In this document: positions 7,229 to 26,621 of the stretch, piece after piece
Layout: each line of letters begins with the position of its first letter
Numbering within the stretch: position 1 is the first letter of the stretch
DNA from: Neomicrococcus aestuarii
GTDB lineage: Bacteria > Actinomycetota > Actinomycetes > Actinomycetales > Micrococcaceae
NCBI RefSeq assembly: GCF_014201135.1
Contig: NZ_JACHDR010000001.1
Location: 372,001 to 436,000 of the forward strand
Length of the DNA stretch: 64,000 nt
Direction: 5' to 3'
Notes under the pieces: generated by a model
Seen by the model: the letters and a program-made list of their open reading frames with translations, nothing else
Database searches by the model: none
What the model was told of the DNA's origin: nothing
Program-made: the position numbers and the translations under genes

Positions 7229-7270
7229 CATTTCACAGGACGAACTTTTCACTAAGAGACAAGGAATCAC

Positions 7271-8690: not shown

Positions 8691-8735
8691 GTGGCGGTCC
8701 AGTACACAGCCTTTCGGCAATTACTGGACCGCCAC
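8691..8735 (-). terminator. Perfect 14-bp hairpin after mutT
   Basis: GTGGCGGTCCAGTA at 8691-8704 pairs perfectly with TACTGGACCGCCAC at 8722-8735. The loop contains an inner hairpin that reads GCC-GAAA-GGC on the minus strand (GNRA tetraloop) and GCC-TTTC-GGC on the plus strand. It lies between convergent genes and lacks a clear T-tract. It could terminate mutT or be part of a minus-strand RNA. Confidence 0.6.
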
Positions 8736-8786
8736 CGGCTTCATAGGCTTTCACCGTAGAAGCTGAGCTTCCCTTCTCACACTTCT

Positions 8787-8836
8787 ATTAGAAATCATGT
8801 TCTAAGAGAAGTCAAGTATATCTAGAACATGATTTC
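8787..8836 (-). promoter_or_regulatory. Orphan promoter inside a 14-bp inverted repeat
   Basis: Inverted repeat GAAATCATGTTCTA (8791-8804) and TAGAACATGATTTC (8823-8836), perfect over 14 bp with an 18-nt gap. On the minus strand TTGACT (8815-8810) and TCTAAT (8792-8787) are 17 bp apart, a good -35/-10 pair. The promoter points at no protein gene, only at the 8691-8735 hairpin. The repeat may be a repressor operator. Confidence 0.4.
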
Positions 8837-8875
8837 GATCATGGTGACCCCCGCCCTCCGCGAGAGTGGCAGGGG

Positions 8876-8899
8876 ACGTAAGCTGCGTCGTCGTACTAG
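8876..8899. repeat. Copy of AAGCTGCGTCGTCGTAC motif
   Basis: The intergenic sequence GTAAGCTGCGTCGTCGTACTAG recurs exactly at 34832-34853 and with changes at 17803, 30533, 33988 (reverse) and 62971 (reverse). Confidence 0.5.
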
Positions 8900-8917
8900 C
8901 TGCGTCCTGCCAGCCGC

Positions 8918-9601
8918 CTACACGAGCGCGAACTCCACCCGCAGGCTCACCGTGTGAGAAATTTCCCCGCCCAGAACAGGCATATCTGCGGACTGAACCG
9001 CAGCACTCTTGAACTCTCGCGCCAACGGAACGGGCGCGGAATCTTCGACACCTTCCTTGATGGAGACCACAGCCCCCAGCTTCCGCTGCGCCAAAGCCGC
9101 CAATTGCGTGGCCCTCGCGAGCGCTTCGGCGAACGCCATCTCGCGAGCCGTGATGATCGCATCGCCAACCGAGGCTGTGTAATACTCGACGCCGCCAATT
9201 CGCGCGGTATCCCCACCAGCGGATATCGCCGCAGAAAGTACCGCGGCCACCGCATCAAGAGGAACATCCGTGGCGGTCACCGTGACCGAGGCAAGGTAGC
9301 CCACCACCACAGAACGGTTCTCGAGCCACTGAACATCAGGGTTCACGCCGATGGACGCCGTGGAAATCCGAGCGTTCGGTGCCGCCTCGCGAACGGCGGG
9401 GATCACCTGCTGAGCCACGCTCGAAACGCTCTGAAAAGCGCCCGCCGCGGTGTCAGCACGCGTTTCGAGGGGAATGAACACAGTGGCGCTATCGGGGCTC
9501 GTGGGGCCAACGCCAACACCTTGGACCGAAATAGTGTGGGAGGAAGAACCGCTCGTGCTGGGATCCCACGCGTGATCTTGCGGAGTGTTGTTCGAGCTCA
9601 A
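8918..9601 (-). CDS. SIMPL domain (DUF541) protein
   Basis: 227 residues, no signal peptide. The SIMPL pattern is visible: ISVQGVGVGPTSPDSATVFIPLETRADTAAGAFQSVSS, then NPDVQWLENRSVVVGYLASVTVTA, GGVEYY and ARATQLAALAQRKLGAVVSIKEG. The family takes its name from signalling molecule interaction with mouse pelle-like kinase; bacterial members are mostly uncharacterised and many are periplasmic or oligomeric, so no function is claimed. The stop codon of the upstream zincin-like gene at 9598 overlaps its start by 4 bp, so the two are probably co-transcribed. Confidence 0.8.
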   Translation of the reverse strand: MSSNNTPQDHAWDPSTSGSSSHTISVQGVGVGPTSPDSATVFIPLETRADTAAGAFQSVSSVAQQVIPAVREAAPNARISTASIGVNPDVQWLENRSVVVGYLASVTVTATDVPLDAVAAVLSAAISAGGDTARIGGVEYYTASVGDAIITAREMAFAEALARATQLAALAQRKLGAVVSIKEGVEDSAPVPLAREFKSAAVQSADMPVLGGEISHTVSLRVEFALV

Positions 9602-10101
9602 AGAGGCCGCCTTCCATTCGTGTTGTGTGGATGAGAGCTGTGCTGACGGGAACGAAGAGCCGCGACGAGGCTCCTGGTGGGCTGTTCGCGGTAGCCGCCC
9701 GCTTGAAGGCCGGCGAAGCGTTCAAAAGGATTGCGGGAGGCGGGATCGCCCGTACGCAACAAAGACCAAGCGACGCCCGCGAAATACAAAGGGAAAAACG
9801 GAAGCCCCAAACACGCAACGTACTGCCAAGAATGCCGCGCCTCGTGAGCCAGCAAAGCTGGGACTTCCCGCGGTTCTGCAAAGTGAGGCCGGAAGAAAAT
9901 GACGTTGCCCACCGTGAAAGCCCCAGCGATAGGCAGTCGGGGACGGTAATTCTTTGCGAGGATCAAGCCCTCGGGGCCCCACTCGAGATCGCACCGGGAC
10001 ACCGCAGCCATGATCAGCCCCAATGGCGTTGCCAGATTCACGGTGTTAAGCACCGCCCTCAGAGCGTGACGAGTCTGCACGTGTTCAGTATAGGGAGCCA
10101 T
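9598..10101 (-). CDS. Hypothetical protein with HExxH motif
   Basis: 167 residues if started at MAPYTEHVQTRHAL; an upstream ATG at 10197 would add 32 residues encoded by a short direct-repeat tract and is less convincing. Contains ILAKNYRPRLPIAGAFTVGNVIFFRPHF and LLAHEARHSWQYVACLGLPFFPLYFAG. HEARH fits the zincin HExxH signature, and the following hydrophobic stretch could be a membrane segment. It may be a small metalloprotease-like or metal-binding membrane protein; no characterised homologue comes to mind. It is translationally coupled to the SIMPL gene (4-bp overlap). Confidence 0.6.
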   Translation of the reverse strand: MAPYTEHVQTRHALRAVLNTVNLATPLGLIMAAVSRCDLEWGPEGLILAKNYRPRLPIAGAFTVGNVIFFRPHFAEPREVPALLAHEARHSWQYVACLGLPFFPLYFAGVAWSLLRTGDPASRNPFERFAGLQAGGYREQPTRSLVAALRSRQHSSHPHNTNGRRPL

Positions 10102-10125
10102 AAGTAGAGGAAGCGGGGTTTGCCT

Positions 10126-10170
10126 GAGCCCTACTACTACGAGCCCTACTAGCACCGGCCCTACTGGCAC
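10126..10170. repeat. Short direct repeats GAGCCCTACTA
   Basis: Three copies of (G/C)CCCTACT(A/G) spaced about 16 nt apart, immediately upstream of the zincin-like gene on its coding side. They may mark replication slippage or a regulatory site. Confidence 0.4.
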
Positions 10171-10213
10171 GGGCAGGTCACGTCTCGGTAGGTGCACGTA
10201 CCCTCTGGGGTGC

Positions 10214-10591
10214 TTAGTCTGATTCGAGCGAGTGCGCGAAGCGGATCAAGTTCCCGTCGCCATCCACGTGGGCGCCTTCGCGCAGGTTGTACTCGGTGTC
10301 CTGCGGCGTCATGGTGGGGCATTCGTAGCCCACATCGGCGGTGGCTGCTTGCCATTCATTCGCCAGCACATCAGCATCGTCGACGTACACGAACACCGAG
10401 GAGAAGTTCATCTCCGGATCCAGATCGTCGTACTCCCAAAAGTGGAGATTGATGTGGTCGCGACGAGCGTAAGCATAGGCTTCATCACCGGCGTAAGTAG
10501 TGACGCGGAAGCCTAGGAGCTCGTAGTGGCGCACGGCGCGTTCGAGGTCAGAAACGGGAAAGACTGCTGCGGACGATTGCAGGATGGCCAT
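10214..10591 (-). CDS. VOC family / bleomycin resistance-like protein
   Basis: 125 residues, the length of a single VOC-fold protein. Begins MAILQSSAAVFPVSDLERAVRHYELLGFRV, the usual first beta-alpha-beta unit. It continues with DHINLHFWEYDD (candidate metal or ligand histidines), FVYVDDADVLANEW and REGAHVDGDGNLIRFAHSL, where DGNLIRF is the typical end of these domains. Relatives bind bleomycin-type drugs or catalyse small-molecule reactions; which one applies is not decidable. It probably acts as a homodimer. Monocistronic, divergent from pcp. Confidence 0.85.
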   Translation of the reverse strand: MAILQSSAAVFPVSDLERAVRHYELLGFRVTTYAGDEAYAYARRDHINLHFWEYDDLDPEMNFSSVFVYVDDADVLANEWQAATADVGYECPTMTPQDTEYNLREGAHVDGDGNLIRFAHSLESD

Positions 10592-10720
10592 ACAGTGAGC
10601 CTAAAACAGCCGCTCGTTCGAGGATGACCCATTTGGGCCGTGTTCGATATGAATTCACGACAAGTTCACTTGTGGAGAGGGCTCAGACCTTTCAAATCTT
10701 CGAGACAGTATGCTTCAGAA

Positions 10721-11404
10721 ATGATTCTTCTGACCGGATTTGAACCTTTCGGGGATCATTCCACCAATCCCAGTGCGGAGGCTGTGCGCCTCGCAGCCGA
10801 GGTGTTGTCGCAACGAGGTATCCGTGCGAGGGCCGAGATACTGCCCGTCACTTTCGAAGGATCGTCGATGGCGCTCGAACATTTGGTGAAGGGCTCTGAG
10901 CTAAAGCTAGAGCCAGAGCCAGGGCGAGAGCGGGACCAAGAACAAGCGCGAGCGCAAGAGTGGGAGCTCATCGTGTGTGTCGGCGTCGCCGGTGGCCGGG
11001 ACAAGGTAAGCCTGGAGCGCGTAGCGATCAACGTGGATGACGCGCGCATTCCTGATAACGACGGCGCCGCTCCCGTGGATGAGCCCATCGTCCCTGACGG
11101 TCCGGCAGCGTACTTCTCGCGACTGCCGCTCAAACGCGGTCTCTTAGCAATTCAAGACACTGGGGTGCCGGTGGAGGTTTCAAACTCTGCAGGCACGTAC
11201 GTGTGCAATCACGTGTTCTACGAACTGATGCATTTGTTGCGGGATCGGCCAGCAGTTCCGGCCGGATTCGTCCACGTTCCGGTGGCGGAGAACATCAGTG
11301 AGCAGGACGCCGCGCGAGCAATCGTTGCACTCGTTGAAACAACACTCGCTGCCCACCGCGCGCAGCTAGACGACGTCAAGGTGACTGCGGGAACCGAAGA
11401 TTAG
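10721..11404 (+). CDS. pcp: Pyroglutamyl-peptidase I
   Basis: 227 residues from MILLTGFEPFGDHSTNPS; an in-frame ATG at 10640 lies in sequence unlike the family. Cysteine peptidase of family C15 that removes N-terminal pyroglutamate. The triad is visible: Glu in the VGVAGGRDKVSLERVAINV region, Cys in SNSAGTYVCNHVFYELMH, and His in GFVHVPV. A highly charged insert (LKLEPEPGRERDQEQARAQEWE, about residues 65-86) occurs between the core strands, and its DNA has short CAGAGC/CGAGAG repeats. Cytoplasmic. Only a weak ribosome site is visible. Confidence 0.9.
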   Translation: MILLTGFEPFGDHSTNPSAEAVRLAAEVLSQRGIRARAEILPVTFEGSSMALEHLVKGSELKLEPEPGRERDQEQARAQEWELIVCVGVAGGRDKVSLERVAINVDDARIPDNDGAAPVDEPIVPDGPAAYFSRLPLKRGLLAIQDTGVPVEVSNSAGTYVCNHVFYELMHLLRDRPAVPAGFVHVPVAENISEQDAARAIVALVETTLAAHRAQLDDVKVTAGTED

Positions 11405-11549
11405 AGCCGCTCACGTTGGATAGGTCCAAGATGCCAAAACAGGGGAAGCGAGGTCCCGGAGAAGGATCTGTGGATAAAGGGAGACCGAACTGCGGATGTC
11501 TACTAGTCTGGAATTCCAAGGAAAATCTTGGGCCTATGACAGGGGAAAC

Positions 11550-12353
11550 ATGAAAAAGTCCGCGAAAATAGTCCCGCTCTTGCTAGCGATGGTCTTCTTG
11601 CTCACTGGCTGCGTCAAGATGAACATGGACTTTGTGGTCAACGCTGACGACACTGCCGACTTGTCCATGATCATGGCCGTCGAAAAGGAAACGCTGGACG
11701 GGCAATCCTTTGACGACTTTCTGAACCAATACGCGGGTGGATCCGATCCATTCGAAGGACTGCCTGAGAACGCCACCAAGGAAGCCTATTCGGATGACAA
11801 GTTCGAAGGTTACCGGGTTCGTCTTGAAGACCAGCCGCTTGCGGACGTCCTGAACGAATCGACCACGAGCACCTCGGGCAAGATCGAGCACCGCGACGGC
11901 AAGTTCTTCGTGGAAACATCCCCTATGGACCTGGGCGAGAATTCCAGCCAAGCGCGCTTGGTGTTTACCGAAGCCACTATGTCCTTCACCTTCCCTGGAA
12001 AGATTGTGTCCGCGACGGATGGCGGCACGATCGAAGGCAACAAGGTCACCTACAATATTTTCGATCTTCAAGACGGCGCCGTTCTCTCCATCGAGGCAGA
12101 AGATTCCAGCGGACCAAACCTCACCTGGTTGTGGTGGGTCCTGGGTGGCGTTGTTCTGCTGGCGCTCGCAGCGCTCGTGTGGGTATTGACGCGCCGCAAG
12201 GCGAAGAACGACGCCGCAGCTACAGTTGCTGAAGGCGCTACCGTTCCGGCGGTCCCGACTAACGCTCCAGCCACCGTGGTTCCGCCTGTTCCGGATCACG
12301 CACCAACTGTGAAGCCTCGCGATACTGACACTGACGCTCACGACGCCAAGTAG
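11550..12353 (+). CDS. LppM family (DUF3153) lipoprotein
   Basis: 267 residues from ATG at 11550, which has AGGGGAA just upstream; an upstream ATG at 11496 places extra residues before the signal peptide. Lipoprotein signal MKKSAKIVPLLLAMVFLLTGC with lipobox LTGC, so it is predicted to be exported and lipid-anchored. The body matches LppM: VKMNMDFVVNADDTADLSMIMAVEKE, SDDKFEGYRVRLED, ARLVFTEATMSFTFPGKI and EGNKVTYNIFDLQDGAVLSIEAE. A C-terminal membrane segment (WLWWVLGGVVLLALAALVWVLTRRK) and a Pro/Ala tail follow. Mycobacterial LppM affects phagosome behaviour; here only surface localisation is inferred. Confidence 0.87.
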   Translation: MKKSAKIVPLLLAMVFLLTGCVKMNMDFVVNADDTADLSMIMAVEKETLDGQSFDDFLNQYAGGSDPFEGLPENATKEAYSDDKFEGYRVRLEDQPLADVLNESTTSTSGKIEHRDGKFFVETSPMDLGENSSQARLVFTEATMSFTFPGKIVSATDGGTIEGNKVTYNIFDLQDGAVLSIEAEDSSGPNLTWLWWVLGGVVLLALAALVWVLTRRKAKNDAAATVAEGATVPAVPTNAPATVVPPVPDHAPTVKPRDTDTDAHDAK

Positions 12354-13576: not shown

Positions 13577-16126
13577 ATGCGAATTCCACTTTCATGGTTG
13601 CGCGAATACGCGCAGGTACCAGCAGACGCAACTGCTGAAGACGTCATGGCTGACCTGGTTAAGGTTGGCCTCGAAGAAGAGGACGTACACCGACCTCTCG
13701 ATGAAATCTCTGGCCCCATTGTGGTGGGCCAGGTCCTTGACCTCGTCAAGGAAGAGCAGAGCAACGGCAAGACCATCAACTGGTGCCACGTCCGCGTAGT
13801 TCCAGAAGGCCAAGAGCAGACCCTCACCGGCGACGGTATTGACCCGAGCGGTGTGCAGGGAATTGTGTGTGGAGCCCACAACTTCGAGGTCGGGGACAAG
13901 GTAGTTGTCACCCTTCCCGGAGCCGTTTTGCCAGGTGATTTCCGCATTGCACCCCGTAAGACCTACGGACACGTTTCTGCGGGCATGATCGCTTCCGTCC
14001 GTGAACTCGGTATTGGCGATGACCACGATGGCATCTTGGTGCTCTCACGCATCGGTCTTGACCCGGAGCTCGGCACCGATGTGCTGGAACTCTTGGGACT
14101 TCGCGATGAAGCTGCAGAAATCAACGTCACCCCTGACCGCGGCTATTGCTTCTCGATCCGCGGCGTCGCCCGCGAGTACGCACTCGCCACCAACACGGTC
14201 TTCACCGATCCCGTAGCCCAGGTCACCGCCCCTGCAGCCACCACCGACGGCTACCCAGTACGCCTCGAAGACCAGAACCCGATCTACGGCGTTCCCGGTT
14301 GCGATCGCTTCGTTGCCCGAGTGGTGCGCGGCGTGGATCCCAGCAAGCCAACCCCACCGTGGATGGCCTCCCGTCTTCGCTTGGCAGGAATGCGCTCGAT
14401 CTCCTTGATCGTGGACATCTCCAACTACGTCATGCTCGAATTCGGTCAGCCACTGCACTTCTACGATGCAGACAAGCTCCAAGGACCCATCGTGGTGCGC
14501 CGCGCAAACGCCGGCGAAAAGCTCACCACGCTCGATGAGAAGGTCCGCGAGCTGAGCACCGAAGATCTGCTCATCACGGATGATCGCGGGGCCATTGGCC
14601 TTGCAGGCGTCATGGGTGGGGCTGAGACGGAAGTCGGAGACTCTACCGTCAACGTCCTGATCGAATCCGCACACTTCGATTCGGTATCCATGGGCCGCAC
14701 GCGCCGTCGCCATAAGCTTCCTTCCGAAGCTTCAAAGCGCAACGAGCGTGGCGTGGACTGGGAGATTGCAGACGAGGCCGCTCAGCGTGCCATCGACCTG
14801 CTGGTAGAGCTCGCCGGTGGAACGCCGGATGCAGCCATCACGGATGCAGGTGCTCGTCCCGAAGCCACCACGATTGATCTGGAAATGTCCTTCCCAGGCA
14901 AGCTAATCGGCGTCGATTACACGCCAGCACAGATTATCGACGTCCTCACCTCCTTGGGCGCAACCGTCGAGGGTGACGCGTCAAGCGAGACCCTTCGCGT
15001 GACCGCTCCATCCTGGCGTCCTGACCTGGAAACCCGCGAAGACCTCGTTGAGGAAATCGCGCGACTCGTGGGCTACGACCAGATCCCGGCAACTCTTCCC
15101 ACCGCCCCTCCGGGCCGCGGATTGACGCGTGCGCAAGCACAGCGTCGTCGTGTGCTCCAGTCGTTGGCAGATGAAGGTTTGACCGAGACGCTGGCCTACC
15201 CGTTCGTGTCCGCCGCACAGAACAACCTGTTCGGCACGCCAACGGCCGATGAGTCAGTCAACGCGATCAAGCTTGTGAACCCCATCTCCGCAGAGTTCGG
15301 CTTCATGCGTGCCTCCGTACTTCCGGGCTTGTTGGACACTGCGCGACGCAACTACTCGCGCGGCTTCCGCGATCTGGCCCTGTACGAGGGCGGACTCGTG
15401 TTCTTGCCTGGCGACACCGTAGGAACCGCCACGTTGCCCCCACTGGGGCAGCTGCCGTCGGAGGAAGTCCTCGAGGACCTGTTCTCGAGCGTTCCAGACC
15501 AGCCATGGCACGTAGCTGCCGTGCTGATCGGTCACGACACCGCTCCGGGCGCAGGACTGACGCCTCGCCCGTTTGAGTGGTCTGACGCGCTCGATGTTGC
15601 CCGCTCCGTGGGCGATGTCCTCGGCGTAGAACTCGTGGTCACTCAGGGTCAGCACCATGCCTTCCACCCAGGACGCACCGCGCAGCTGTCGCTGCCTAAC
15701 GGTGACGTCGTTGGCTACGCAGGCGAATTGCACCCGAAGGTTCTTCAAGAGCTGGATCTTCCGGCTCGCACCGTGGTCATGGAAGTGAACGCTGAAGCGA
15801 TGTTTGAGGCTGCCGCGGATGTCATCGTGGCAACTCCGCTCTCCACGTTCCCACCGACCACCCAGGACGTAGCTCTGGTAGTGGATCGTGGCGTGGTGGC
15901 TCAAGACGTCCTCAGCGCTTTGCGCGAAGGCGCCGGCGAGCTCCTCGAAGACGTGTCCTTGTTCGACGTCTACGAAGGCCCAGGCATCGACGAAGGCAAG
16001 AAGTCCTTGGCCTTCGGCCTTCGCTTCCGTGCCAACGATCGCACGCTCACCGCTGACGAGGCCTCCGAGTCTCGTGCGGCAGCCGTAGCGCTTGCCGCTG
16101 AGCGATTCGGTGCCGTCCAGCGCTAG
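13577..16126 (+). CDS. pheT: Phenylalanine-tRNA ligase beta subunit
   Basis: 849 residues, slightly above the usual ~800. Domain order is visible: B1 with an EMAPII-like tRNA-binding fold (PIVVGQVLDLVKEEQSNGKTINWCHV, VCGAHNFEVGDKVVVTLPGAVLPG), B3/B4 editing region (MRSISLIVDISNYVMLEFGQPLHFYDADKL, GLAGVMGGAETEV), B5, catalytic-like core (SAEFGFMRASVLPGLLDTARRN, LALYEGG) and a C-terminal FDX-ACB anticodon-binding domain (TPLSTFPPTTQDVALVVDRGV, SLAFGLRFRANDRTLTADEA). Ends before a bidirectional hairpin shared with ppk2. Confidence 0.98.
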   Translation: MRIPLSWLREYAQVPADATAEDVMADLVKVGLEEEDVHRPLDEISGPIVVGQVLDLVKEEQSNGKTINWCHVRVVPEGQEQTLTGDGIDPSGVQGIVCGAHNFEVGDKVVVTLPGAVLPGDFRIAPRKTYGHVSAGMIASVRELGIGDDHDGILVLSRIGLDPELGTDVLELLGLRDEAAEINVTPDRGYCFSIRGVAREYALATNTVFTDPVAQVTAPAATTDGYPVRLEDQNPIYGVPGCDRFVARVVRGVDPSKPTPPWMASRLRLAGMRSISLIVDISNYVMLEFGQPLHFYDADKLQGPIVVRRANAGEKLTTLDEKVRELSTEDLLITDDRGAIGLAGVMGGAETEVGDSTVNVLIESAHFDSVSMGRTRRRHKLPSEASKRNERGVDWEIADEAAQRAIDLLVELAGGTPDAAITDAGARPEATTIDLEMSFPGKLIGVDYTPAQIIDVLTSLGATVEGDASSETLRVTAPSWRPDLETREDLVEEIARLVGYDQIPATLPTAPPGRGLTRAQAQRRRVLQSLADEGLTETLAYPFVSAAQNNLFGTPTADESVNAIKLVNPISAEFGFMRASVLPGLLDTARRNYSRGFRDLALYEGGLVFLPGDTVGTATLPPLGQLPSEEVLEDLFSSVPDQPWHVAAVLIGHDTAPGAGLTPRPFEWSDALDVARSVGDVLGVELVVTQGQHHAFHPGRTAQLSLPNGDVVGYAGELHPKVLQELDLPARTVVMEVNAEAMFEAAADVIVATPLSTFPPTTQDVALVVDRGVVAQDVLSALREGAGELLEDVSLFDVYEGPGIDEGKKSLAFGLRFRANDRTLTADEASESRAAAVALAAERFGAVQR

Positions 16127-16219: not shown

Positions 16220-17125
16220 TTAGAACTCTTCGCCTTCGGCAATGACGTTCGCGGCCGGACCGAGGATCTTGGGATCCGGGGAACCTACAATTGCGTGGTC
16301 CTTGCCCGTGTACTCAAACAAGCTCAAGACGTGGCGCATCGCAGCCAAACGCGCACGCTTCTTGTCATTGGATTTCACCACGGTCCACGGCGCGTGATCC
16401 GTGTCCGTCTGAACGAACATGTTCTCTTTGGCTTCGGTGTAGTCGTCCCACTTGTCCAAGGACGCGATGTCCATGGGGGAGAGCTTCCACTGACGCACGG
16501 GATCGATCTGGCGGATCGTGAAGCGCGTGAGCTGCTCTTGCTTGGAAACGGAGAACCAGAACTTGACCAGCGAAATGCCATCATCCACGATCAGCTTCTC
16601 AAACGCAGGAGTCTGGCGCACAAAGAGGTCGTAGTCTTCGCGCGTGCAAAAGCGCATCACGCGTTCCACGCCGGCGCGGTTGTACCAAGAGCGGTCGAAC
16701 ATCACGATCTCACCTGCGGATGGGAAATGTTCGATGTAGCGCTGGTAGTACCATTGCGTGGTTTCGCGTTCGCTCGGCTTCTCCAGCGCCACTACGCGGG
16801 CGCCGCGCGGATTTAGGTGCTCGGTGAAACGCTTGATGGTGCCGCCCTTGCCGGCAGCGTCGCGGCCTTCGAACACCAAAATGATGCGGTGGCCATATTC
16901 TTTGACCCAGTTCTGGAGCTTGATGAGCTCCACTTGGAGCTGGCGCTTTTCGAACTCGTACTGGTCGCGCGGCATGCGTTCCTCGTACGGGTAACCCTCG
17001 CGCCAAGTCTCCACCATGTTGCCTTCTGGCGTGAGCAAGACGGGATCGTCGTCGTCATCGTCAACAACGGTGTAGCCCAAGAATTTAGGATCGAGTGTGG
17101 GGGCGATAGTTTTAGAAACGGTCAC
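16220..17125 (-). CDS. ppk2: Polyphosphate kinase 2
   Basis: 301 residues, one PPK2 domain. Walker A FEGRDAAGKGGTIKRFTEHLNPRG, lid and Walker B region EIVMFDRSWYNRAGVERVMRFCTREDYDLF, and ASLDKWDDYTEAKENMFVQTDTDHAPW. Members transfer phosphate between polyphosphate and nucleoside diphosphates or monophosphates. The single-domain length and motifs fit class I (NDP to NTP), but subclass is not certain from reading. Divergent from the PPTase gene with 35 bp between starts, so promoters overlap. Confidence 0.93.
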   Translation of the reverse strand: MTVSKTIAPTLDPKFLGYTVVDDDDDDPVLLTPEGNMVETWREGYPYEERMPRDQYEFEKRQLQVELIKLQNWVKEYGHRIILVFEGRDAAGKGGTIKRFTEHLNPRGARVVALEKPSERETTQWYYQRYIEHFPSAGEIVMFDRSWYNRAGVERVMRFCTREDYDLFVRQTPAFEKLIVDDGISLVKFWFSVSKQEQLTRFTIRQIDPVRQWKLSPMDIASLDKWDDYTEAKENMFVQTDTDHAPWTVVKSNDKKRARLAAMRHVLSLFEYTGKDHAIVGSPDPKILGPAANVIAEGEEF

Positions 17126-17160: not shown

Positions 17161-17913
17161 GTGAACTTAGCTTCTGAGGGTTTCCCCGCTTCCCAATACG
17201 ACGCCGCAGCCTTGGCTCTCGCTGATATCTTGCCGTCTGCGTGGCTTACGAGGGCGGAAGAACGGCGTGCGGAACAGCTGGGGGCGGCCGGTGAGCGCTT
17301 TGTGGCGGGCAGGCTTGCGGCTCGTCAGATGGCTAGCGTGATCCTCGGCCTTCCTGCACCTGAGTTGCGTATCGTCTCGCGCTGCGAAGGCTGTGGGTCA
17401 GACGAGCACGGGGTTCCGGAAATTGTGGGACCGCTCCACCGTGGCGAACCAACGCGATGGCATTCGAGCCTGTCGCGAAGTGATACGCACGTGATACTGG
17501 GTGTGGTCCTGACACCAGTTCAGGAGCTTGCGGGCCGCGTGTCCATCGGGGTGGACCTGACGAGTACGGACGCCCGGCATGAGCGAATCCTGGCCGAGCT
17601 AGACCCCTCCTTCTTTGAAGAGGAAGAACTCTGGGACGTCCCAACTCGTGCTCAGTGGTGGGCTATGAAAGAGGCGTTCGGGAAGGCACAGGGAACAGGA
17701 ATCGTTCCTCACGTCCCTAACATTTTGGGGCCGCAAGGGTTCAGCACTGCGGAGATCTCCTCCGCCCACCGCAGCCCAGTATTACCGAGCGTTCCCGGGC
17801 ACGTAAGCTGCGGCGTCGTACTGCAAAAGTATGCCCACGAAACGTCAGCACATAGCGAAATCGCAGACCGAAACGGCTCAGAAACGGAACGGCGGCAGCT
17901 TTTCCTCAAATAG
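17161..17913 (+). CDS. 4'-phosphopantetheinyl transferase superfamily protein
   Basis: 250 residues, GTG start with AAAAGGA upstream. Shows the Sfp-type layout: ERFVAGRLAARQMASVILG (the substrate-binding Arg pair near residue 45), HSSLSRSDTHVILGVV, then the two magnesium/catalytic motifs GVDLTS (about residue 138) and WWAMKEAFGKAQG (about residue 163). Such enzymes load the phosphopantetheine arm of CoA onto carrier-protein serines. It is encoded convergently with the peptidase/synthetase pair at 17878-23159, whose carrier domain is the obvious client. The last 36 bp overlap the 3' end of the M1 peptidase gene. A variant copy of the AAGCTGCG repeat falls within its 3' coding end. Confidence 0.85.
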   Translation: MNLASEGFPASQYDAAALALADILPSAWLTRAEERRAEQLGAAGERFVAGRLAARQMASVILGLPAPELRIVSRCEGCGSDEHGVPEIVGPLHRGEPTRWHSSLSRSDTHVILGVVLTPVQELAGRVSIGVDLTSTDARHERILAELDPSFFEEEELWDVPTRAQWWAMKEAFGKAQGTGIVPHVPNILGPQGFSTAEISSAHRSPVLPSVPGHVSCGVVLQKYAHETSAHSEIADRNGSETERRQLFLK

Positions 17914-19236
17914 CCACGGCTTCAGCACGGCCTTCGCGGAATAGCCGCGCGGTCCGTGAGAATCCACGTGCTTGACGAACTGGCGGTAGGTCACGTTGTC
18001 ATGCGCCTTGCGGCGCGTCCAATCACGCAGCATGCCAAAGAACCGCTGATCGCCCATGGTGCGGCGCAGCGCATGAAGAGCCAGAGCGCCGCGCTTGTAG
18101 ACGCGATCGTCGAAGAGATCCTTGGGGCCAGGATCGCCCACCGTGATGTTCTGAGACTGCAACCACAGAGCAGACCACGCCCGGTGTGCGCGACCGTGGG
18201 CGTTCGTGGAGCCGGACGCTTCCGACCACAACCACTCTGCGTAGCACGCGAAGCCTTCATGCAACCAAATGTCGTCCCAGCGGCCCACTGTGAGTGAGTT
18301 GCCGAACCACTGGTGAGAGAGCTCGTGCGCAATGAGGCGTTGCGACTCCCAGCCCGTGGTGAGGTGATTCTTGCCGAAAATGGACATGCCCTGAGCCTCT
18401 AGAGGGATCTCTAGGTTGTCATCGGCAACCACCACTTGATAGTTCGGGAACGGGTACGGGCCAAAGAATTTCGAGAACGCCGTAACCATGTCCGTTTGCT
18501 TCGCGAACGCTCGCTTTGCAGCCGAGGTCAGCCCAGGGGAGACCGCGGCGTACTGCTGCGTGGTCTTTGCGCCCACCTTGGAACGGCCAAGATTGACGAC
18601 CTCGTAGCGGCCAATCTGAAGCGTGGCGAGGTAGGTAGCCATGGGCTGGTGAACCTCATAGGACCACACTTCGCGGCTGGACTTGCGCGAATGATCGATC
18701 AACTTGCCGTTAGCGATAGCGCGATAACCGGTATCCGTAGCAATCGTGATGCGGTACGTAGCCTTCTGGCTGGGGTGATCGTTGCACGGGAACCACGTGG
18801 GCGCGCCGTCGGGCTGGCCAGCTACCAAGATGCCATCGGTGAGTTCTTCCCAGCCTACTTCGCCCCAGGTGCCGCGACGGGGCTTGGGATTGCCACCGTA
18901 GCGGATGTCGATCTCAAACTTCTCGCCTTCGCTCAGCGATGACGGCACGTGGATGACCAGCTTGTCATTCTTGTGCGTGAACTTCTTGATTTTCTTGCCG
19001 TCAACGGCCACCTTGATCACGGACAGTCCGGCAAGGTCCAGCTCAATCTTGGAGAGCTTTTCCTCTGCCCGTGCCACAATCACCGCGCGACCATCCAGCC
19101 GATTCCCGGCCAGTGAGCACTCCAACTCAAGCGCGTAGTGCGCCACGGTGTAGGCGTTGCTACCGGCGGACGGAAGATAGGGGTCTGGAATGAGAGGCAC
19201 GTTGTGGGCTCGTGTTGCTTTCTTCTTGGGACTCAT
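17878..19236 (-). CDS. M1 family zinc metallopeptidase
   Basis: 452 residues from MSPKKKATRAHNVPLIPDPYLP. Gluzincin motif HELSHQWFGN with the downstream glutamate in WLHEGFACYAEWLW completes HExxH-18-E, and the exopeptidase-type GMSIF (GxMEN position) lies upstream. An N-terminal beta domain (residues 30-200) and catalytic domain are present; the long C-terminal domain of full aminopeptidase N is missing, as in short M1 proteins. No signal peptide is visible. Its ATG overlaps the stop of the Pls-type synthetase (ATGA), implying coupled translation. Epsilon-poly-lysine producers make degrading enzymes of this aminopeptidase type near pls, so a Pld-like role is plausible but unproven. Confidence 0.88.
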   Translation of the reverse strand: MSPKKKATRAHNVPLIPDPYLPSAGSNAYTVAHYALELECSLAGNRLDGRAVIVARAEEKLSKIELDLAGLSVIKVAVDGKKIKKFTHKNDKLVIHVPSSLSEGEKFEIDIRYGGNPKPRRGTWGEVGWEELTDGILVAGQPDGAPTWFPCNDHPSQKATYRITIATDTGYRAIANGKLIDHSRKSSREVWSYEVHQPMATYLATLQIGRYEVVNLGRSKVGAKTTQQYAAVSPGLTSAAKRAFAKQTDMVTAFSKFFGPYPFPNYQVVVADDNLEIPLEAQGMSIFGKNHLTTGWESQRLIAHELSHQWFGNSLTVGRWDDIWLHEGFACYAEWLWSEASGSTNAHGRAHRAWSALWLQSQNITVGDPGPKDLFDDRVYKRGALALHALRRTMGDQRFFGMLRDWTRRKAHDNVTYRQFVKHVDSHGPRGYSAKAVLKPWLFEEKLPPFRF

Positions 19237-22200
19237 CCGCGAAGGGTGTCTCCGGTCTGAGGATTCAGGGTCATCGGGCCGCCCCACGGGTGGACAGGGT
19301 TACCCATCCAGTACGTTGAGGCGGGGATTGACTCGCCGCGCATCACCAAGGATGCGGGTCCCACAGTGGCTGAACTTCCAAGCTCGGCGGCCGGGAGGAT
19401 CACCCCATGCGGACCCATCGTGGCGCCGTCGTCTAAGACCACCGTATCAATCGCCATGACGCGGTCGTGGAACAAGTGCGTCTGAACCACCGTGCCGCGG
19501 TTCACGGTGCTGGAATCGCCGAGGGTAACGAGGTCAGCCTCGGGCAGCCAGTAGCTTTCGCACCACACGCCGTGACCAATCTTGGCGCCAAGAGCGCGAA
19601 GCCACCACACCAGCGCTGGGGTGCCGGACGCGCTGCGCGCGAACCACGGAGCACACACCATTTCGATGAACACGTCCACCACTTCGTTGCGCCAAATAAA
19701 GGAGCTCCACAAGGGGTGTTCGCCGGCCTTGATGCGTCCCACCAAGACCCACTTCGCAATGATCGCAATGGTTCCAGCCACTGCGCCAGCAGCCACCAGA
19801 ACGGCGCCGGATAGCACTGCCGCGATCAGATAGTTCGTGGATTCGGCCACGAAATCTAGGGCCAGCAGAACTCCGGCGGCGACCGCCACGGACACCATCA
19901 TGGGGATAGCGCGGCAGATCTCCCACGCAGCGCGCATGAGCTTGAGCTTGCGCGGCGGGTTGTAGGTCAACTCCACGTCCGCCTCCACGTTGGTACGGCG
20001 CAGACGGGTGGGAGGGGAGCCCAGCCAGGAGGAGCCTGCCTTGGCCTTGTTGGGCGTGGCGGACAAGACGGCCACCAGGGAATTCTTCGGGACACGACGG
20101 CCAGCTGCCGCAATACCCGAGTTACCGAGGAAGGACTTCTTACCGACCTTCGCCGGGGCCACGTGCATCCAACCGCCGCCGAGTTCGTAGGAAGCCACCA
20201 TGGTGTCATCAGCCAAGAAGGCGCCGGAACCAATCGTCGTCATCTTGGGAATCAAGAGGACGGTAGATGCTTCGACATTCTGTCCCACCTTGGCGCCGAG
20301 CAGGCGAAGCCAGATAGGGGTGAAGAGGGAAGCATAGATCGGGAAGAGAAGATCGCGTGCCATGTCCAAAAGACGCTCGGTGGCCCACACTGCCCAGCCG
20401 GTGGTGCTGCGGACAGGATGCCAACCTTCCTTGATGAAGACACCCAAGAAACGAACGGTCGCCAGGATGACCAGCGCGTTGACCAGGAACCAGACGATGG
20501 CAGCCAAAGGCACAGCAATGAACACCTGAACCCACGCTTCGGCAAGGGACTCGTGACCGCTCAAGAACGGAACCGTCACCGCGATAGCAGCCACCACGGA
20601 GATGAACGGAACCATCGCAAGGACTGCACTTGCCGCGCCAAAGAGCGCCGTGCGCCACCAACCACCCGGGGCGGCCGTCTCCGGCCACGGGGTCTTGGCT
20701 TTGCCGGACCGGCGAGCAGGCGAACCCGCGTAGGCGAACCCACCCTTGACGTGACCTTCCACGGCGGAGCCCGCGTGAACGTCCGCAAAGTCGCCCACGA
20801 CCGAACCCGGCATGAGAGTCGAGCGGGTGGCAATGTTCGCGAAGGAACCCACCTTGACCGGTCCCACGTGCACCTTGTCGCCATCAATCCAGTAACCGGA
20901 CAGGTCAACTTCGGGTTCAATGGATGCGCCCTTGCCCACGGTCAGCATGCCGGTGACGGGCGGAACGGAGTGCAAGTTCACGTCTTGGCCGATTTTCGCT
21001 CCGAGGGCGCGGGCGTAGTACGGCACCCACGGTGCTGACGCGAGTGACACTGGATCGATCAAATCGGCGATGTGCTCAGCAAGCCACAAGCGCAAGTGCC
21101 ATTTACCCGAGCGCGGGTAGGTTCCGGGCTGGAGTCCACGCAAGAGCAAACGCGCGGAGATCACGGCCAGGCCCATGCGTCCCAGCGGCGAGACGAAGAC
21201 GATCCACAGCGCGAGGACCCACCACCAAGAAATCGCTGGGGCGCCGGGAAGGATTCCCCACATGCCCAGCAAGTTGTTGCCGGCGATCAAATAGGTCAGC
21301 CAACGCATGCCCACCAAGACGAAGAGCAGGACGCTCATGAGTGTCTGGAAGAACTGCGCCTTGCGCGTCGTGCGTGCAACGTCGCGCGGTTCCACCGGGG
21401 CGGAGACGGTCGAGCCGGTCACGAACTCGATGAGTGAGCCCACGCGAGCGTGCGAGTAGATATCGCCTACCGTGACCTCGGGGTAGCGGCGACGCAAGAC
21501 GGAGACCAGCTGGGCCGCCGAGAGCGAACCGCCGCCTGCAGTGAAGAAGTCGTCATCAAGGCTCGCCACCGGCGTGCCCAAAATATTGCCCCAGGACTCG
21601 GCCACGTAGCGCGATGCCTCGTCCAGGTTGTTGAGATCAAACGAAGAATCGTTGGACGCCGCACCCGGCAAAGGCCACGGAAGCGCGTTGCGGTCCACCT
21701 TGCCGCTGGTCTTCGTGGGGAGCGAATCCACCACGGTCAACAACGGGATCAAGGGAGCTGGGAGGACCTCGGAGAGCTGATCGCGCGCTGCGCCGACGTC
21801 GTACGAATCAAGAAGTGAGGCCTCGGGCGCCAAGTAACCCACCAAAATCTGGTTACCAGCGGCGGTGGTCTTCACGGCAGCCGCGGCACCATGAATTCCG
21901 GGCAGCGCCTGCATTGCGGAGTCAATTTCGCCCAGTTCAATGCGGCGTCCGCCGAGTTTGACCTGCTCGTCCATGCGACCGACGAACAAAAGTCCAGCGG
22001 GATCGTTGACCACAAGGTCACCGGAACGGTAGGCGCGCTCCCAGCCCAGCGTGGGGAAAGGCGCGTACTTCTCAGCATCCTTCGCCGGGTCCAAGTAGCG
22101 GGCAAGCCCTACGCCACCGATGATGAGCTGGCCGGATTCGCCATCAGCCACCGGCACGCCCTCTTCGTTGACCACGGCGAGATCCCAGCCGTCCAACGGC

Positions 22201-23159
22201 AGGCCGATCCGCACTGGTCCCTCACCGGTCATCTGCGCGCCACAGGCCACCACGGTTGCTTCAGTGGGGCCGTAGGTGTTCCACAGTTCGCGGTCCTCGG
22301 TGGCCAAGCGGGCGGCAAGTTCTGGCGGGCATGCTTCGCCGCCGAAGATCAGTAGTCGAACGTTTTCAAGCGCTTCGGCGGGCCACAAAGCAGCCAGCGT
22401 GGGCACGGTGGAGACTGCGGTGATGCCCTTGGTGATGAGCCAGGGTCCCAAGTCCATGCCGGAGCGAACCAACGAGCGCGGGGCGGGAACCAAACATGCG
22501 CCGTGGCGCCATGCGAGCCACATCTCTTCACACGAAGCATCAAAAGCTACGGACAATCCGGCCAGCACACGGTCGCCTGGACCCAGCGGCTCGGCCTGCA
22601 AAAACATGCGGGCCTCGGCGTCAACAAAAGCTGCGGCGGAACGGTGGGACACCGCAACGCCCTTGGGGGTGCCCGTAGAACCGGACGTGAAAATGATCCA
22701 CGCGTCGTCCGTGCCTTCGGGCATTCGTGGCGCAGGGTGCGGCTTCACGATGTCTTTCGGGACCACAATCTTCGCGGATTCCCCGCGCATGATGCCCTTG
22801 ACCTTGGCTTCGGAGAACACGGTCTTGGCACGTTCGTCTGGATCATCGGCGTCCACCGGTACGTATGCCGCGCCGATCCACATAGTGGCAAGGATGGCGA
22901 TGTACAGCTCTTTCGTGCCCGAGGGGATGCGAATACCTACTCGGTCACCGGCGCCGATTCCTGCCTCGTGCAGGTTTCGGGCTGTCGCTTTGATGGCTTT
23001 GATGAGCTCGGAGTACGTCAGCTCCGTCTTTCCGTCATCAAGGGCAGGCGCGTCAGGGTGCGCGGTAGCGGTGGCGTTGAGAATATCGACGAGCGTGCGT
23101 GGTTCTGGGGCACGCTCGGAACCCGGAAATTGAGGCGAATAAACGGGCGAAATGGTCAC
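19233..23159 (-). CDS. Pls/PosA-type single-module NRPS, candidate epsilon-poly-lysine synthetase
   Basis: 1308 residues, close to the ~1319 of Streptomyces Pls. GTG start with AAGGA eight bases upstream. Adenylation domain (25-500): A3 FTSGSTGTPKGV, A4 FDASCEEMW, A5 NTYGPTEATV, A7 YRSGDLV, A8 GRMDEQVKLGGRRIELGEID, A10 PTKTSGKVDR (Lys487). Carrier domain (510-585): FFTAGGGSLSA, arm site Ser545. The rest alternates six membrane segments in three pairs (near 605-670, 830-910, 1090-1150) with left-handed beta-helix acyltransferase-like repeats (KIGQDVNLHS, HVGPVKVGSFANIATRS, KVGQNVEAST, KIGHGVWCES), the architecture of iterative poly-amino-acid synthetases. The specificity pocket read by alignment to GrsA is DAESIGTVVK. 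Confidence 0.92.
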   Translation of the reverse strand: MTISPVYSPQFPGSERAPEPRTLVDILNATATAHPDAPALDDGKTELTYSELIKAIKATARNLHEAGIGAGDRVGIRIPSGTKELYIAILATMWIGAAYVPVDADDPDERAKTVFSEAKVKGIMRGESAKIVVPKDIVKPHPAPRMPEGTDDAWIIFTSGSTGTPKGVAVSHRSAAAFVDAEARMFLQAEPLGPGDRVLAGLSVAFDASCEEMWLAWRHGACLVPAPRSLVRSGMDLGPWLITKGITAVSTVPTLAALWPAEALENVRLLIFGGEACPPELAARLATEDRELWNTYGPTEATVVACGAQMTGEGPVRIGLPLDGWDLAVVNEEGVPVADGESGQLIIGGVGLARYLDPAKDAEKYAPFPTLGWERAYRSGDLVVNDPAGLLFVGRMDEQVKLGGRRIELGEIDSAMQALPGIHGAAAAVKTTAAGNQILVGYLAPEASLLDSYDVGAARDQLSEVLPAPLIPLLTVVDSLPTKTSGKVDRNALPWPLPGAASNDSSFDLNNLDEASRYVAESWGNILGTPVASLDDDFFTAGGGSLSAAQLVSVLRRRYPEVTVGDIYSHARVGSLIEFVTGSTVSAPVEPRDVARTTRKAQFFQTLMSVLLFVLVGMRWLTYLIAGNNLLGMWGILPGAPAISWWWVLALWIVFVSPLGRMGLAVISARLLLRGLQPGTYPRSGKWHLRLWLAEHIADLIDPVSLASAPWVPYYARALGAKIGQDVNLHSVPPVTGMLTVGKGASIEPEVDLSGYWIDGDKVHVGPVKVGSFANIATRSTLMPGSVVGDFADVHAGSAVEGHVKGGFAYAGSPARRSGKAKTPWPETAAPGGWWRTALFGAASAVLAMVPFISVVAAIAVTVPFLSGHESLAEAWVQVFIAVPLAAIVWFLVNALVILATVRFLGVFIKEGWHPVRSTTGWAVWATERLLDMARDLLFPIYASLFTPIWLRLLGAKVGQNVEASTVLLIPKMTTIGSGAFLADDTMVASYELGGGWMHVAPAKVGKKSFLGNSGIAAAGRRVPKNSLVAVLSATPNKAKAGSSWLGSPPTRLRRTNVEADVELTYNPPRKLKLMRAAWEICRAIPMMVSVAVAAGVLLALDFVAESTNYLIAAVLSGAVLVAAGAVAGTIAIIAKWVLVGRIKAGEHPLWSSFIWRNEVVDVFIEMVCAPWFARSASGTPALVWWLRALGAKIGHGVWCESYWLPEADLVTLGDSSTVNRGTVVQTHLFHDRVMAIDTVVLDDGATMGPHGVILPAAELGSSATVGPASLVMRGESIPASTYWMGNPVHPWGGPMTLNPQTGDTLRG

Positions 23160-23330: not shown

Positions 23331-24293
23331 TTACGGTACTAAGACTAGTTTGCCAGTGGTGCCACGTGACTCAAGGTCATGATGCGCCTTCTTCGCGTCG
23401 CTTAGCGGGTATTGCCCGCCAATGCGGACATCAAGTTTACCGCTTGCAACTAGGGAAAACAGCTCATGTCCGCGCCACTCTACTTCCTCGGCGTCCAGAA
23501 GGTAGTCCTTGAGCGTGGGACGCGTGAAGAACAGAGAACCCGCGGCGTTGAAGCGCTGTAGGTTCACCGGCGGCACCTGTCCTGACGCTCCACCAAAGAG
23601 AACTAGCATGCCGCGGCGGCGCAAAGAGGCCAATGAACCGTCAAAGGTATCCTTGCCAATTCCGTCGTACACCACGTCCGCTCCGCGCCCGTTCGTGATC
23701 TCGCGCACTGTGCCGGGAATGTCGTCATATTCAAGGACATAATCCGCGCCGGCGCCCTTCGCGAGTTCTCGCTTTTCCGTGGTTGACGCCGTCGTAATCA
23801 CCGTGGCGCCCTTCATCTTGAGCAATTGCGTCAACAGCAGACCCACGCCGCCAGCGCCCGCGTACGTCAAGACAACGTCGCCTTCTTTGACCGGGTAGCT
23901 CGAATTGATGAGGTAGTGCGCCGTCATACCTTGCAAGGGGAGTGCCGCAGCTTCGACGTCGCTCACGCCGTCCGGGACCGCTACTACGTGAGCGGCGTCC
24001 GCCACGAAGTATTCCGCGTAGGTGCTGACGCCTTGAGCAGTGGCCACGCGGGCGCCGACAGCAAGGTTCTTCACGCCGTCCCCGAGCGCCACGACGCGCC
24101 CGGCGCCCTCAGTTCCCACGATCGCGGGGTACGAAATGTTGTAGACGCCACTGCGCTCGTACGTTTCAATGAAGTTGACGCCAGTGCCGACGGTCTCGAT
24201 GAGTACCTGACCGGGTGCTGGAGTTGGTTCTGGAACGTCGACGTATTCGAGGACCTCGGGGCCGCCCGCTTGAGAAACATGAATTGCTTTCAT
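23331..24293 (-). CDS. Quinone oxidoreductase, zinc-independent MDR family
   Basis: 320 residues. N-terminal GroES-like part (MKAIHVSQAGGPEVLEYVDVPEPTPAPGQVLIETVGTGVNFIETYERSGVY), then a Rossmann fold with AGAGGVGLLLTQLLKMKGATVI and GRGADVVYDGIGKDTFDGSL. The catalytic-zinc cysteines of alcohol dehydrogenases are absent, as in QOR. NADPH-dependent one-electron reduction of quinones is the family activity. The gene is divergent from argC with 85 bp between starts, so the ArgR-like boxes there could also touch its promoter. Confidence 0.92.
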   Translation of the reverse strand: MKAIHVSQAGGPEVLEYVDVPEPTPAPGQVLIETVGTGVNFIETYERSGVYNISYPAIVGTEGAGRVVALGDGVKNLAVGARVATAQGVSTYAEYFVADAAHVVAVPDGVSDVEAAALPLQGMTAHYLINSSYPVKEGDVVLTYAGAGGVGLLLTQLLKMKGATVITTASTTEKRELAKGAGADYVLEYDDIPGTVREITNGRGADVVYDGIGKDTFDGSLASLRRRGMLVLFGGASGQVPPVNLQRFNAAGSLFFTRPTLKDYLLDAEEVEWRGHELFSLVASGKLDVRIGGQYPLSDAKKAHHDLESRGTTGKLVLVP

Positions 24294-24378: not shown

Positions 24379-25413
24379 ATGAGTTTAAGGGTTGCTGTTT
24401 CCGGGGCCTCTGGTTATGCAGGCGGCGAAGTGTTGCGATTGCTCTTGCAACACCCCGCCGTAGAGATCGGTGCGATCACCGCGCATAGCAATGCGGGCCA
24501 AAAGCTAGGCACGCTCCAACCGCACTTGTTCGCGCTCGCAGACCGAGTGCTCGAAGACACCACGGCGGAGGTCCTCTCTGGACACGACGTCGTCTTCCTC
24601 GCACTGCCGCACGGAGCCTCCGGCGAAATCGCTGCACAACTGCCAGAGAACACCCTCGTGATCGATGCCGGTGCCGATCACCGCCTTGAATCCGCGAGCG
24701 CATGGGAGCAGTTCTACGGCTCTCCTCACGCGGGGACGTGGCCGTACGGTCTGCCTGAACTTCCTGGCCAGCGCGAGAAACTTCGAGGCACCACACGCAT
24801 CGCCGTGCCCGGTTGCTACCCCACTAGCGCTCAACTTTCCCTCGTGCCCGGCTTCGCGGCTGGCTTGTTGGAACCCGAAGACGTAGTAATTGTCTCCGCT
24901 TCCGGAACCTCGGGGGCGGGAAAGTCCCTCAAGACCCACTTGTTGGGTTCTGAAGTCATGAACGGCATGAGCCCGTACGGCGTGGGTGGCGTTCACCGTC
25001 ACACTCCCGAAATGGAGCAAGGCTTTAGCGCCGCTGCCGGCGAGCCGGTCACGGTGTCCTTTACTCCTACGTTGGCGCCGATGCCGCGAGGAATTATTAC
25101 GACGGCGACCGCTCGCCTTAAGGACAAAACGGTAGACCCAGCCCGCGTGCGTCAGGCATGGGTGGAGGCGTACGCGGACGAACAGTTCGTGCATGTCCTG
25201 CCAGAGGGGCAGTGGCCGAACACCAAGATGGTGTTGGGTTCCAACCACGTTGCGCTTCAGCTTGCCGTCGATTCCCGCGTGGGCCGCGTTGTGGTGACCA
25301 CCGTGATCGATAACCTCACCAAGGGCACCGCCGGAGGTGCCGTCCAATCAATGAATATCGCTCTGGGCCTTGAAGAGACCCTTGGCTTGAACGGAGTAGG
25401 ACTCGCCCCATGA
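24379..25413 (+). CDS. argC: N-acetyl-gamma-glutamyl-phosphate reductase
   Basis: 344 residues. Third step of arginine synthesis, NADPH-dependent reduction of N-acetylglutamyl phosphate. Nucleotide-binding start [22 protein letters not shown], catalytic cysteine in [15 protein letters not shown]-terminal histidine region [12 protein letters not shown] and the dimerisation stretch [12 protein letters not shown]. First gene of argCJBDFR; its start follows ArgR-like boxes by about 15 nt. The stop overlaps argJ (ATGA). Confidence 0.97.
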
Positions 25414-26621
25414 GTTTCCTAGAATCATTCCTCGCAGAGAACAACTTGCCGTCCACCACGCTGTTGGGCGTCGCAGATCCGAAGGGCTTCCGTGCCGCGG
25501 GTGTGCCAGCCGGCTTGAAGTCGACCGGTAAGCCGGACGTCTCCCTGGTGGTGAACGACGGCCCCGAGCACCACGCCGCCGCCGTTTTCACCTCCAACCG
25601 AGTTGCCGCCGCGCCCGTGATCTGGTCCCGCCAGGTGGTCTCGGACGGCCGTGCTGACGCCGTGCTGTTGAACTCCGGTGGCGCCAACGCGTGCACGGGA
25701 CCGCAGGGTTTCCAGAACACCCATGCCTCCGCCGAAAAGACCGCTGAGCTCTTGGGCATCTCCGCCGGGGACGTATTGGTGTGCTCTACCGGTTTGATCG
25801 GCGAGCAGTTGCCGATGGATAAGATCTTCGCCGGTACCACTGACGCTCACGCGCGGCTGGCCTCCGGTGAAGAAGCGAGCGCGGCCGCCGCTGCTGGCAT
25901 CATGACCACGGATACTGTGTCCAAGCGGGCCGGTTTCGAAGGCTCCGGTTACCTCATTGGCGGAATGGCCAAGGGTGCTGGAATGCTCGCCCCTGCGCTT
26001 GCCACCATGCTCGTGGTCATCACGACAGACGCTGTGCTGGAGCCGGCCCAGTTGGATGCGGCTTTGCGGGCAGCCTGCGCTGTGAGCTTTGATCGCGCTG
26101 ATGCAGACGGCTGCATGTCCACCAACGACACCGTGATCCTCATGGCCTCGGGCGCGTCAGGCGTGACCCCGGATGTCGAAGAATTCACGAAGGGTCTGAC
26201 GGCCACGTGCGTTGATTTGGCGTTGCAGTTGATGCACGACGCCGAAGGCGCGTCTCACGAGATCGCCGTGCGGACCTTCAACGCGGCTTCCGTGGATGAT
26301 GCTCTCGAGGTTTCTCGTGCAGTGAGCCGTTCCAACCTGTTCAAGACGGCGATCTTCGGTAATGACCCCAACTGGGGCCGCGTGCTTTCCGCTACGGGCA
26401 CTACCAAGGCTGCGTTTGAGCCCGAGAACCTCAACGTGTTCATGAACGGAGTCCAGGTCTGCCGTAACGGTGGACTGGGCGAGGACCGCTCGCTCGTGGA
26501 CCTGAGCGGACGCAACGTCACGGTGGATATTGACCTGCGAGCGGGTTCCGAGGAAGCCACCATCTGGACCAACGACCTCACGCACGAATACGTGCATGAG
26601 AACTCCGCTTACTCCAGCTGA
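25410..26621 (+). CDS. argJ: Glutamate N-acetyltransferase / amino-acid N-acetyltransferase
   Basis: 403 residues. Recycles the acetyl group from N-acetylornithine to glutamate; many bacterial ArgJ also use acetyl-CoA. The self-cleavage site is in [21 protein letters not shown] (around residue 198), where the Thr of ATM becomes the nucleophile of the beta chain. Other family signatures are [26 protein letters not shown]-like text ([19 protein letters not shown]) and [15 protein letters not shown]. Overlaps argC by 4 bp. Confidence 0.97.

Follow-up and report, generated by a model that had tools for sequence, protein, structure and literature searches.

A predicted ε-poly-L-lysine locus with synthetase, M1 peptidase and phosphopantetheinyl transferase genes in Neomicrococcus aestuarii

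What polymer might be made by the Pls-type synthetase encoded in Neomicrococcus aestuarii (Micrococcaceae), and do the genes beside it serve the same pathway? The locus in question holds a pls gene, an M1 metallopeptidase gene and a 4'-phosphopantetheinyl transferase (PPTase) gene, all open reading frames within a 64,000-nucleotide stretch of contig NZ_JACHDR010000001.1 (positions 372,001 to 436,000; assembly GCF_014201135.1), hereafter called the window. An initial annotation had grouped these genes as a Pls-type homopoly-amino-acid locus, and both the domain scores and the linkage of the genes in related loci bear this out. We estimate a probability of roughly 0.85 that the locus is a three-gene module for ε-poly-L-lysine (ε-PL), comprising PPTase, Pls and M1 peptidase. 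ε-PL is a natural food preservative made industrially with Streptomyces, and a compact PPTase-peptidase-synthetase block in non-filamentous actinobacteria would be a practical enzyme source.

Synthetase domains and predicted substrate

The adenylation (A) domain, carrier and Pls/PosA C-terminal part proposed initially were all recovered in the 1308-residue synthetase (Table 1). The A domain is matched by PF00501 at residues 29-354, the carrier by PF00550 with 37.6 bits, and the C-terminal part by TIGR02353 with 696.5 bits against a cut-off of 423.1. Carrier residue Ser545 is invariant across nine aligned sequences. Hydropathy places three paired hydrophobic units at approximately residues 603-669, 837-910 and 1080-1143, corresponding to the six transmembrane (TM) segments expected of Pls, and an AlphaFold model of residues 600-1308 (pLDDT 70.5), in which helix groups alternate with short strands, agrees with this arrangement. 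The paired units of the initial description therefore stand, but the beta-helix fold it assigned to the C domains is plausible rather than firmly demonstrated, because the PDB matches are weak: a fold search with the C-terminal part gave no match under E 0.001 (best E 6.5e-3), although acetyltransferases account for seven of the 12 listed matches, including the best three.

The closest solved relative of the synthetase is 7wew (665 bits), the A domain of an ε-PL synthetase that we take to come from Streptomyces albulus. When aligned, the ten-residue pocket of the window protein (DAESIGTVVK) equals that of 7wew at all ten positions. This pocket recurs in 31 of the 45 aligned rows, which cover part of the 80 named loci described below; seven rows have DAESIGTVIK and seven are more divergent. 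The second pocket position is reported to be Ala in Pls, Met in PosA (DMEHNGTVSK) and Phe in PDAP and PDAB synthetases (accessible part of PMC10522769). In a tree of the same 45 rows, the window A domain clusters with 7wew, Streptomyces and Kitasatospora in a 38-row clade (branch 100/100) and thus does not group apart from characterised Pls, which the initial annotation had named as a possible refutation; 7wew is the sole characterised row, and for the other types the tree contains uncharacterised proteins rather than characterised β-lysine, ornithine, PDAP or PDAB synthetases. The remaining seven rows lie outside this lysine-type clade, several of them on long branches; L175, L176, L177 and L178 are such long branches.

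Because its pocket is identical to that of S. albulus Pls, the window synthetase very probably has ε-PL as its product. The same identity speaks against the new homopolymer chemistry that had been suggested for this bacterial group, and relevant precedents are already in print. A pls-peptidase operon is described from Corynebacterium variabile, whose cloned gene gives ε-PL in S. coelicolor, together with Pls homologues in Arthrobacter, Glutamicibacter and Micrococcus (Jiang et al. 2021, PMC8117764, accessible part). An antiSMASH NAPAA (ε-polylysine-like) cluster is likewise noted in Pseudarthrobacter (PMC12025171, accessible part). The locus is therefore of an already-known type and largely ordinary, both the pls-peptidase pair and the Micrococcaceae homologues being known. 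Not found in the open-licence literature, in searches that were not aimed at synteny, were a link between PPTase and pls, a fixed pls locus, the joint absence of its genes, or a cytoplasmic-looking coupled peptidase.

Comparison with other systems places these features in context. The window resembles S. albulus Pls and PldII in synthetase architecture, in its pocket and in having the peptidase gene directly after pls, but differs in the PPTase beside the block and in a peptidase without an export-like N-terminus; for PldII this comparison draws on the literature and on a Streptomyces homologue, L173. The C. variabile operon belongs to coryneform relatives that include the Arthrobacter, Glutamicibacter and Micrococcus homologues, and the accessible part of its account (PMC8117764) is silent on a PPTase, on a fixed locus and on where the peptidase is located. 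PosA, the δ-poly-L-ornithine synthetase of Acinetobacter baumannii, also has an A domain, a carrier and a terminal transmembrane domain (PMC10522769, accessible part), whereas its pocket differs from that of the window protein as given above. Locus L175 of Streptomyces sp. NBC_01527, of poly-diaminobutyrate type by gene context, shares the Pls/PosA family with the window but has the pocket DFECLSAVTK, only 34% A-domain identity, and transaminase and aspartate kinase genes in place of the M1 peptidase.

Companion genes, their place and their joint absence

The stop codon of pls (19235-19233) shares bases with the in-frame ATG of the peptidase gene (19236-19234), which yields the ATGA overlap described initially, and the HExxH-x18-E motif of the peptidase is intact (residues 304-327). 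Pls/PosA-family matches above cut-off occur in 163 of 295 Micrococcaceae genomes, representing 22 of 32 genera. The lysine motif set is present in 27 of the first 31 loci (L006 and L018-L047; L044 misses one motif), all with an M1 motif downstream, and the other four (L018, L019, L021 and L028) carry FDFSVEEI with no M1 motif downstream. A further set of 41 longer loci, namely the sister species and 40 chosen across genera from a score-ranked list, was reduced to 40 family loci by dropping L072, which is of another type. M1 is matched in all 40, the dehydrogenase of Table 1 in 35 and PPK2 in 13. Relative to the sister species, identity is 92% for the A domain, 88% for the C-terminal part, 81% for M1 and 61% for the PPTase.

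Among named genomes, for which the best 80 of at least 578 confirmed relatives were used, an M1 open reading frame (ORF) lies downstream of pls in 79 loci, directly or within ~2 kb; only L137, a contig of 7 kb, departs from this, and it too gives a partial M1 match. By tblastn, at least part of an M1 is matched in each of the 80. These loci span Arthrobacter, Kocuria, Rhodococcus, Nocardia, Brevibacterium, Mycolicibacterium, Amycolatopsis and others. Across the 295 family genomes, a lysine-type A domain (threshold 1e-120, which also admits the second lysine-type clade, PlsII) and M1 occur together in 147, the A domain alone in 10, M1 alone in 3 and neither in 135. Two of the three genomes with M1 alone (G066 and G174) do carry a Pls/PosA-family match.

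As initially noted, the PPTase gene lies next door and is convergent to the peptidase gene, with which it has a 36-bp overlap at the 3' end. Its Pfam score (ACPS, PF01648) of 22.1 is under the cut-off of 25, and a PDB sequence search gave no matches. Residues C75, H83, G84, P86, G130, D132, W167, E171, A172 and K175 are nonetheless invariant in two partly overlapping sets of relatives (22 and 20 proteins), and the protein contains both G-x-D and W-x-x-K-E-A-x-x-K, which we take to be the motifs of Sfp-type PPTases. Its model (pLDDT 73.3) matches human PPTase and Sfp in the PDB with E values of 1.6e-6 to 3.5e-5 and TM-scores of 0.38-0.44.

A profile of orthologous PPTases is matched at E <=1e-3 in 35 of the 40 family loci (L087, at 0.0049, is excluded). 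A different PPTase subfamily (PF17837 and PF01648 in L087) lies beside the block in L087, where it is positioned beyond PPK2, and in L067, where it adjoins M1. By both profiles, 37 of the 40 fetched stretches contain a PPTase, and in those of L051, L057 and L058 neither profile finds one. Across these 40 loci, the three-gene set that had been proposed for survey in Micrococcaceae is complete in its peptidase but not in its PPTase.

The pls block sits at a recurrent place in the family, between pheT and argC, both of which are matched in 28 of the 40 loci. Genomes lacking pls were also sampled, using the first 16 of 20 listed genomes (16 genera); argC was present in 15, and these regions were fetched. 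Both pheT and the dehydrogenase are matched in 12 of the 15, which provides 12 comparable sites, and in the fetched stretch of all 12 there is no match to M1, to the PPTase profiles or to the Pls C-terminal part. The gap between the borders at these sites is 78-229 bp in seven, 1.1-1.35 kb in three and 4.3-6.3 kb in two, compared with 5,966-9,334 bp in the 28 pls-bearing loci that have both borders (7,205 bp in the window). One empty site, L191, retains between its borders a Pls A-domain piece with 71% identity to residues 111-290, which marks a loss of pls. A recent foreign island was considered as an origin of the window locus and is rejected in view of a GC content of 0.588-0.628 across 12-28 kb together with the matched pheT and argC borders.

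The window peptidase has no export-like N-terminus (hydropathy peaks at 0.51 within its first 60 residues) and, judged by hydropathy, probably acts in the cytoplasm. From 122 loci searched, 121 peptidase N-terminal regions were readable (L075 was left out, as its match starts late), and just one has an export-like hydrophobic stretch. This one is L173, a Streptomyces locus that is sister to 7wew in the A-domain tree and has a twin-arginine-like start. In S. albulus, by contrast, PldII activity is reported at the cell surface (PMC9205021 and PMC9223678, accessible parts). Although the pls-coupled M1 peptidase of the initial annotation is upheld, its proposed self-protective role like that of Pld is weakened because the window peptidase looks cytoplasmic. 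The literature, as far as accessible, is itself divided on this role: PldII is argued to be needed for producer self-protection (PMC9223678), whereas inactivation of Pld/PldII is reported to have no effect on production or chain length (PMC8506220). A peptidase of cytoplasmic appearance puts the purpose of the coupled enzyme in question again.

Proposed mechanism and alternative explanations

We propose that the PPTase would load 4'-phosphopantetheine onto Ser545 of the Pls carrier, and that the A domain would adenylate L-lysine and then load the carrier. The three C-terminal membrane-anchored domains would couple lysines one by one via the ε-amino group, and the polymer would exit at the membrane; both steps are known for S. 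albulus Pls and are inferred here. The M1 peptidase may then hydrolyse ε-PL, most likely on the cytoplasmic side given its lack of an export signal, where leaked, aborted or re-entering chains could be its substrates.

The same enzyme family might instead polymerise another diamino acid here, such as ornithine, diaminobutyrate, diaminopropionate or β-lysine. The Pls/PosA family is reported to make several polymers (PMC10522769, accessible part), and a second type exists in the same bacterial family (L018, L028 and L072, with pocket DFECLSVVTK). This alternative has a slim chance: the pocket agrees with that of S. albulus Pls at all ten positions, and the L175 protein, encoded next to diaminobutyrate transaminase and aspartate kinase genes, carries DFECLSAVTK and falls on a separate branch. 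A silent or decaying relic without product would fit with the native ε-PL that was not detected from C. variabile (PMC8117764, accessible part), with the 132 of 295 family genomes that have no family match, with the pls fragment at empty site L191, and with the one decayed and one fragmentary extra pls copy in the window genome. However, the window keeps all three frames open, their sister-species counterparts are conserved and the catalytic motifs are retained; we give a relic very little credence.

The PPTase could be a general Sfp-type enzyme that is located there by chance, since the profile is matched without a lysine-type A-domain match in 44 of 295 family genomes, and G235 (L184) retains the PPTase but no Pls. 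Chance location is nevertheless unlikely: a PPTase is present in all seven family loci whose fetched stretch contains neither pheT nor argC (L064, L065, L067, L069, L085, L086 and L089), lies on the opposite side of pls in L071 and L089, belongs to a different subfamily beside the block in L087, L105, L108, L115 and L067, and is absent from the empty sites along with M1 and pls. For the peptidase, non-classical export or membrane association would permit protection from outside, as the cell-surface activity of S. albulus PldII would suggest (PMC9205021 and PMC9223678, accessible parts). We consider this unlikely, given that the single export-like stretch among the 121 N-terminal regions belongs to a Streptomyces sister of 7wew.

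Several observations weigh against the three-gene ε-PL module. The C. variabile pls yields no ε-PL natively or in C. glutamicum, where it is expressed without product, and does so only in S. coelicolor (PMC8117764, accessible part); as an idea only, a linked PPTase might help account for a pls that is expressed in a foreign host yet yields no product. A PPTase occurs in 30 of the 80 named loci (Micrococcaceae genera plus Humibacillus, Compostimonas, Agreia and Plantibacter) and so is not universal; the Rhodococcus, Nocardia and Mycolicibacterium named loci gave no match to the two profiles, which are Micrococcaceae-built and could miss others. In the family genomes, a lysine-type A domain and the PPTase profile are both matched in 143, the A domain only in 14, the PPTase only in 44 and neither in 94, so that 44 of the 138 genomes without the A-domain match have the PPTase. 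Its profile is also matched elsewhere in the genome in 6 of the 16 pls-less genomes, and therefore the PPTase is not always lost with pls. Such genome counts are phylogenetically non-independent, and the peptidase location is read from hydropathy. The fetched stretches of two plasmid-borne lysine-type pls loci (L172 and L174) have no annotated M1. In PlsII, M1 is seen in 3 of 9 loci, where it lies 3.4-3.7 kb past pls and is separated from it by other ORFs; this count comes from a longest-frame display that can miss genes (M1 was placed inside L186 by another search).

A broader reading, which we offer tentatively and hold to be doubtful, is that the ε-PL locus of Micrococcaceae might be an ancient, vertically inherited unit of three genes, with a PPTase of its own and a peptidase that stays inside the cell; the derived state would then be the exported PldII found in S. 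albulus-like Streptomyces. If true, the polymer would be turned over intracellularly and have a resident function (in stress, polyphosphate or surface binding) beyond that of a secreted antibiotic.

Features of the locus and related synthetases

The features of the locus and its borders are collected in Table 1, where the pheT-like, argC-like and argJ-like names are our presumed assignments from sequence. A promoter and terminator scan of the locus gave signal no higher than in shuffled sequence, and an Rfam search gave no matches. A polyphosphate link between the neighbouring PPK2 and the polycation is only an idea.

Table 1. Positions of the predicted genes, domains and borders in the window
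Feature	Positions	Strand	Evidence
pls, predicted membrane-bound NRPS-like ε-poly-L-lysine synthetase, 1308 aa, GTG start	19233..23159	-	TIGR02353; A-domain tree
Adenylation domain, residues 17-500, pocket DAESIGTVVK (lysine type)	21660..23111	-	7wew match; alignment
Carrier (T) domain, residues 518-580, GGGSL motif, Ser545 = codon 21525-21527	21420..21608	-	PF00550
C-terminal Pls/PosA domain, residues 604-1289, three paired-TM units, C domain after each	19293..21350	-	TIGR02353; hydropathy; model
M1 metallopeptidase, PldII counterpart, 452 aa	17878..19236	-	PF01433, 98.8 bits; motif; hydropathy
ATGA overlap, pls stop and peptidase start	19233..19236	-	sequence
Sfp-like 4'-phosphopantetheinyl transferase, 250 aa	17161..17913	+	PF01648 under cut-off; motifs; PPTase fold match
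PPK2 polyphosphate kinase, neighbour, not counted in unit	16220..17125	-	PF03976, 336.8 bits
pheT-like gene, one syntenic border	13577..16126	+	matched in 28/40 family loci
Zinc-binding dehydrogenase (quinone-oxidoreductase-like), other border	23331..24293	-	PF00107; PF08240
argC-argJ-like genes, syntenic border	24379..26621	+	argC in 33/40, argJ in 32/40 family loci

The window genome has two PPTase matches and only three carrier-domain matches (a 153-aa frame, Pls and the decayed pls). The decayed copy is a second lysine-type pls at L048 (G000:C1:243000-262000; ~8166-12056, minus strand), which is split into several frames and has an A-domain piece with 61% identity; L048 also holds pieces resembling an HGSNAT-like acyltransferase of L049, and presumably transposase-like, IS110-like frames adjoin it. 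The fragmentary copy, at L049 (G000:C1:1908000-1926000; 7126-9049, minus strand), is a C-terminal Pls remnant adjoining an HGSNAT_cat protein of 474 aa, with what we take to be transposase-like frames nearby.

PlsII has the pocket DAESIGTVIK in seven of eight rows. At L187:3468-10061, L188:4678-11179 and L189:4684-10849, PlsII is accompanied by an HGSNAT_cat acyltransferase and by a dihydrodipicolinate synthase, an enzyme of the lysine pathway, and these three loci possibly make a modified polylysine. The DFECLSVVTK pocket of L018, L028 and L072 is one residue from that of L175, and no M1 was seen in these stretches. L175 is located on a plasmid (4917-11636), with its synthetase gene followed by the transaminase and kinase genes. 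A plasmid of Rhodococcus qingshengii (L176, 3953-9983) encodes a Pls/PosA synthetase with the pocket DFEYLGTVTK; genes for a BPL-N protein and an HGSNAT-type acyltransferase come next, and a further product type is possible for this synthetase.

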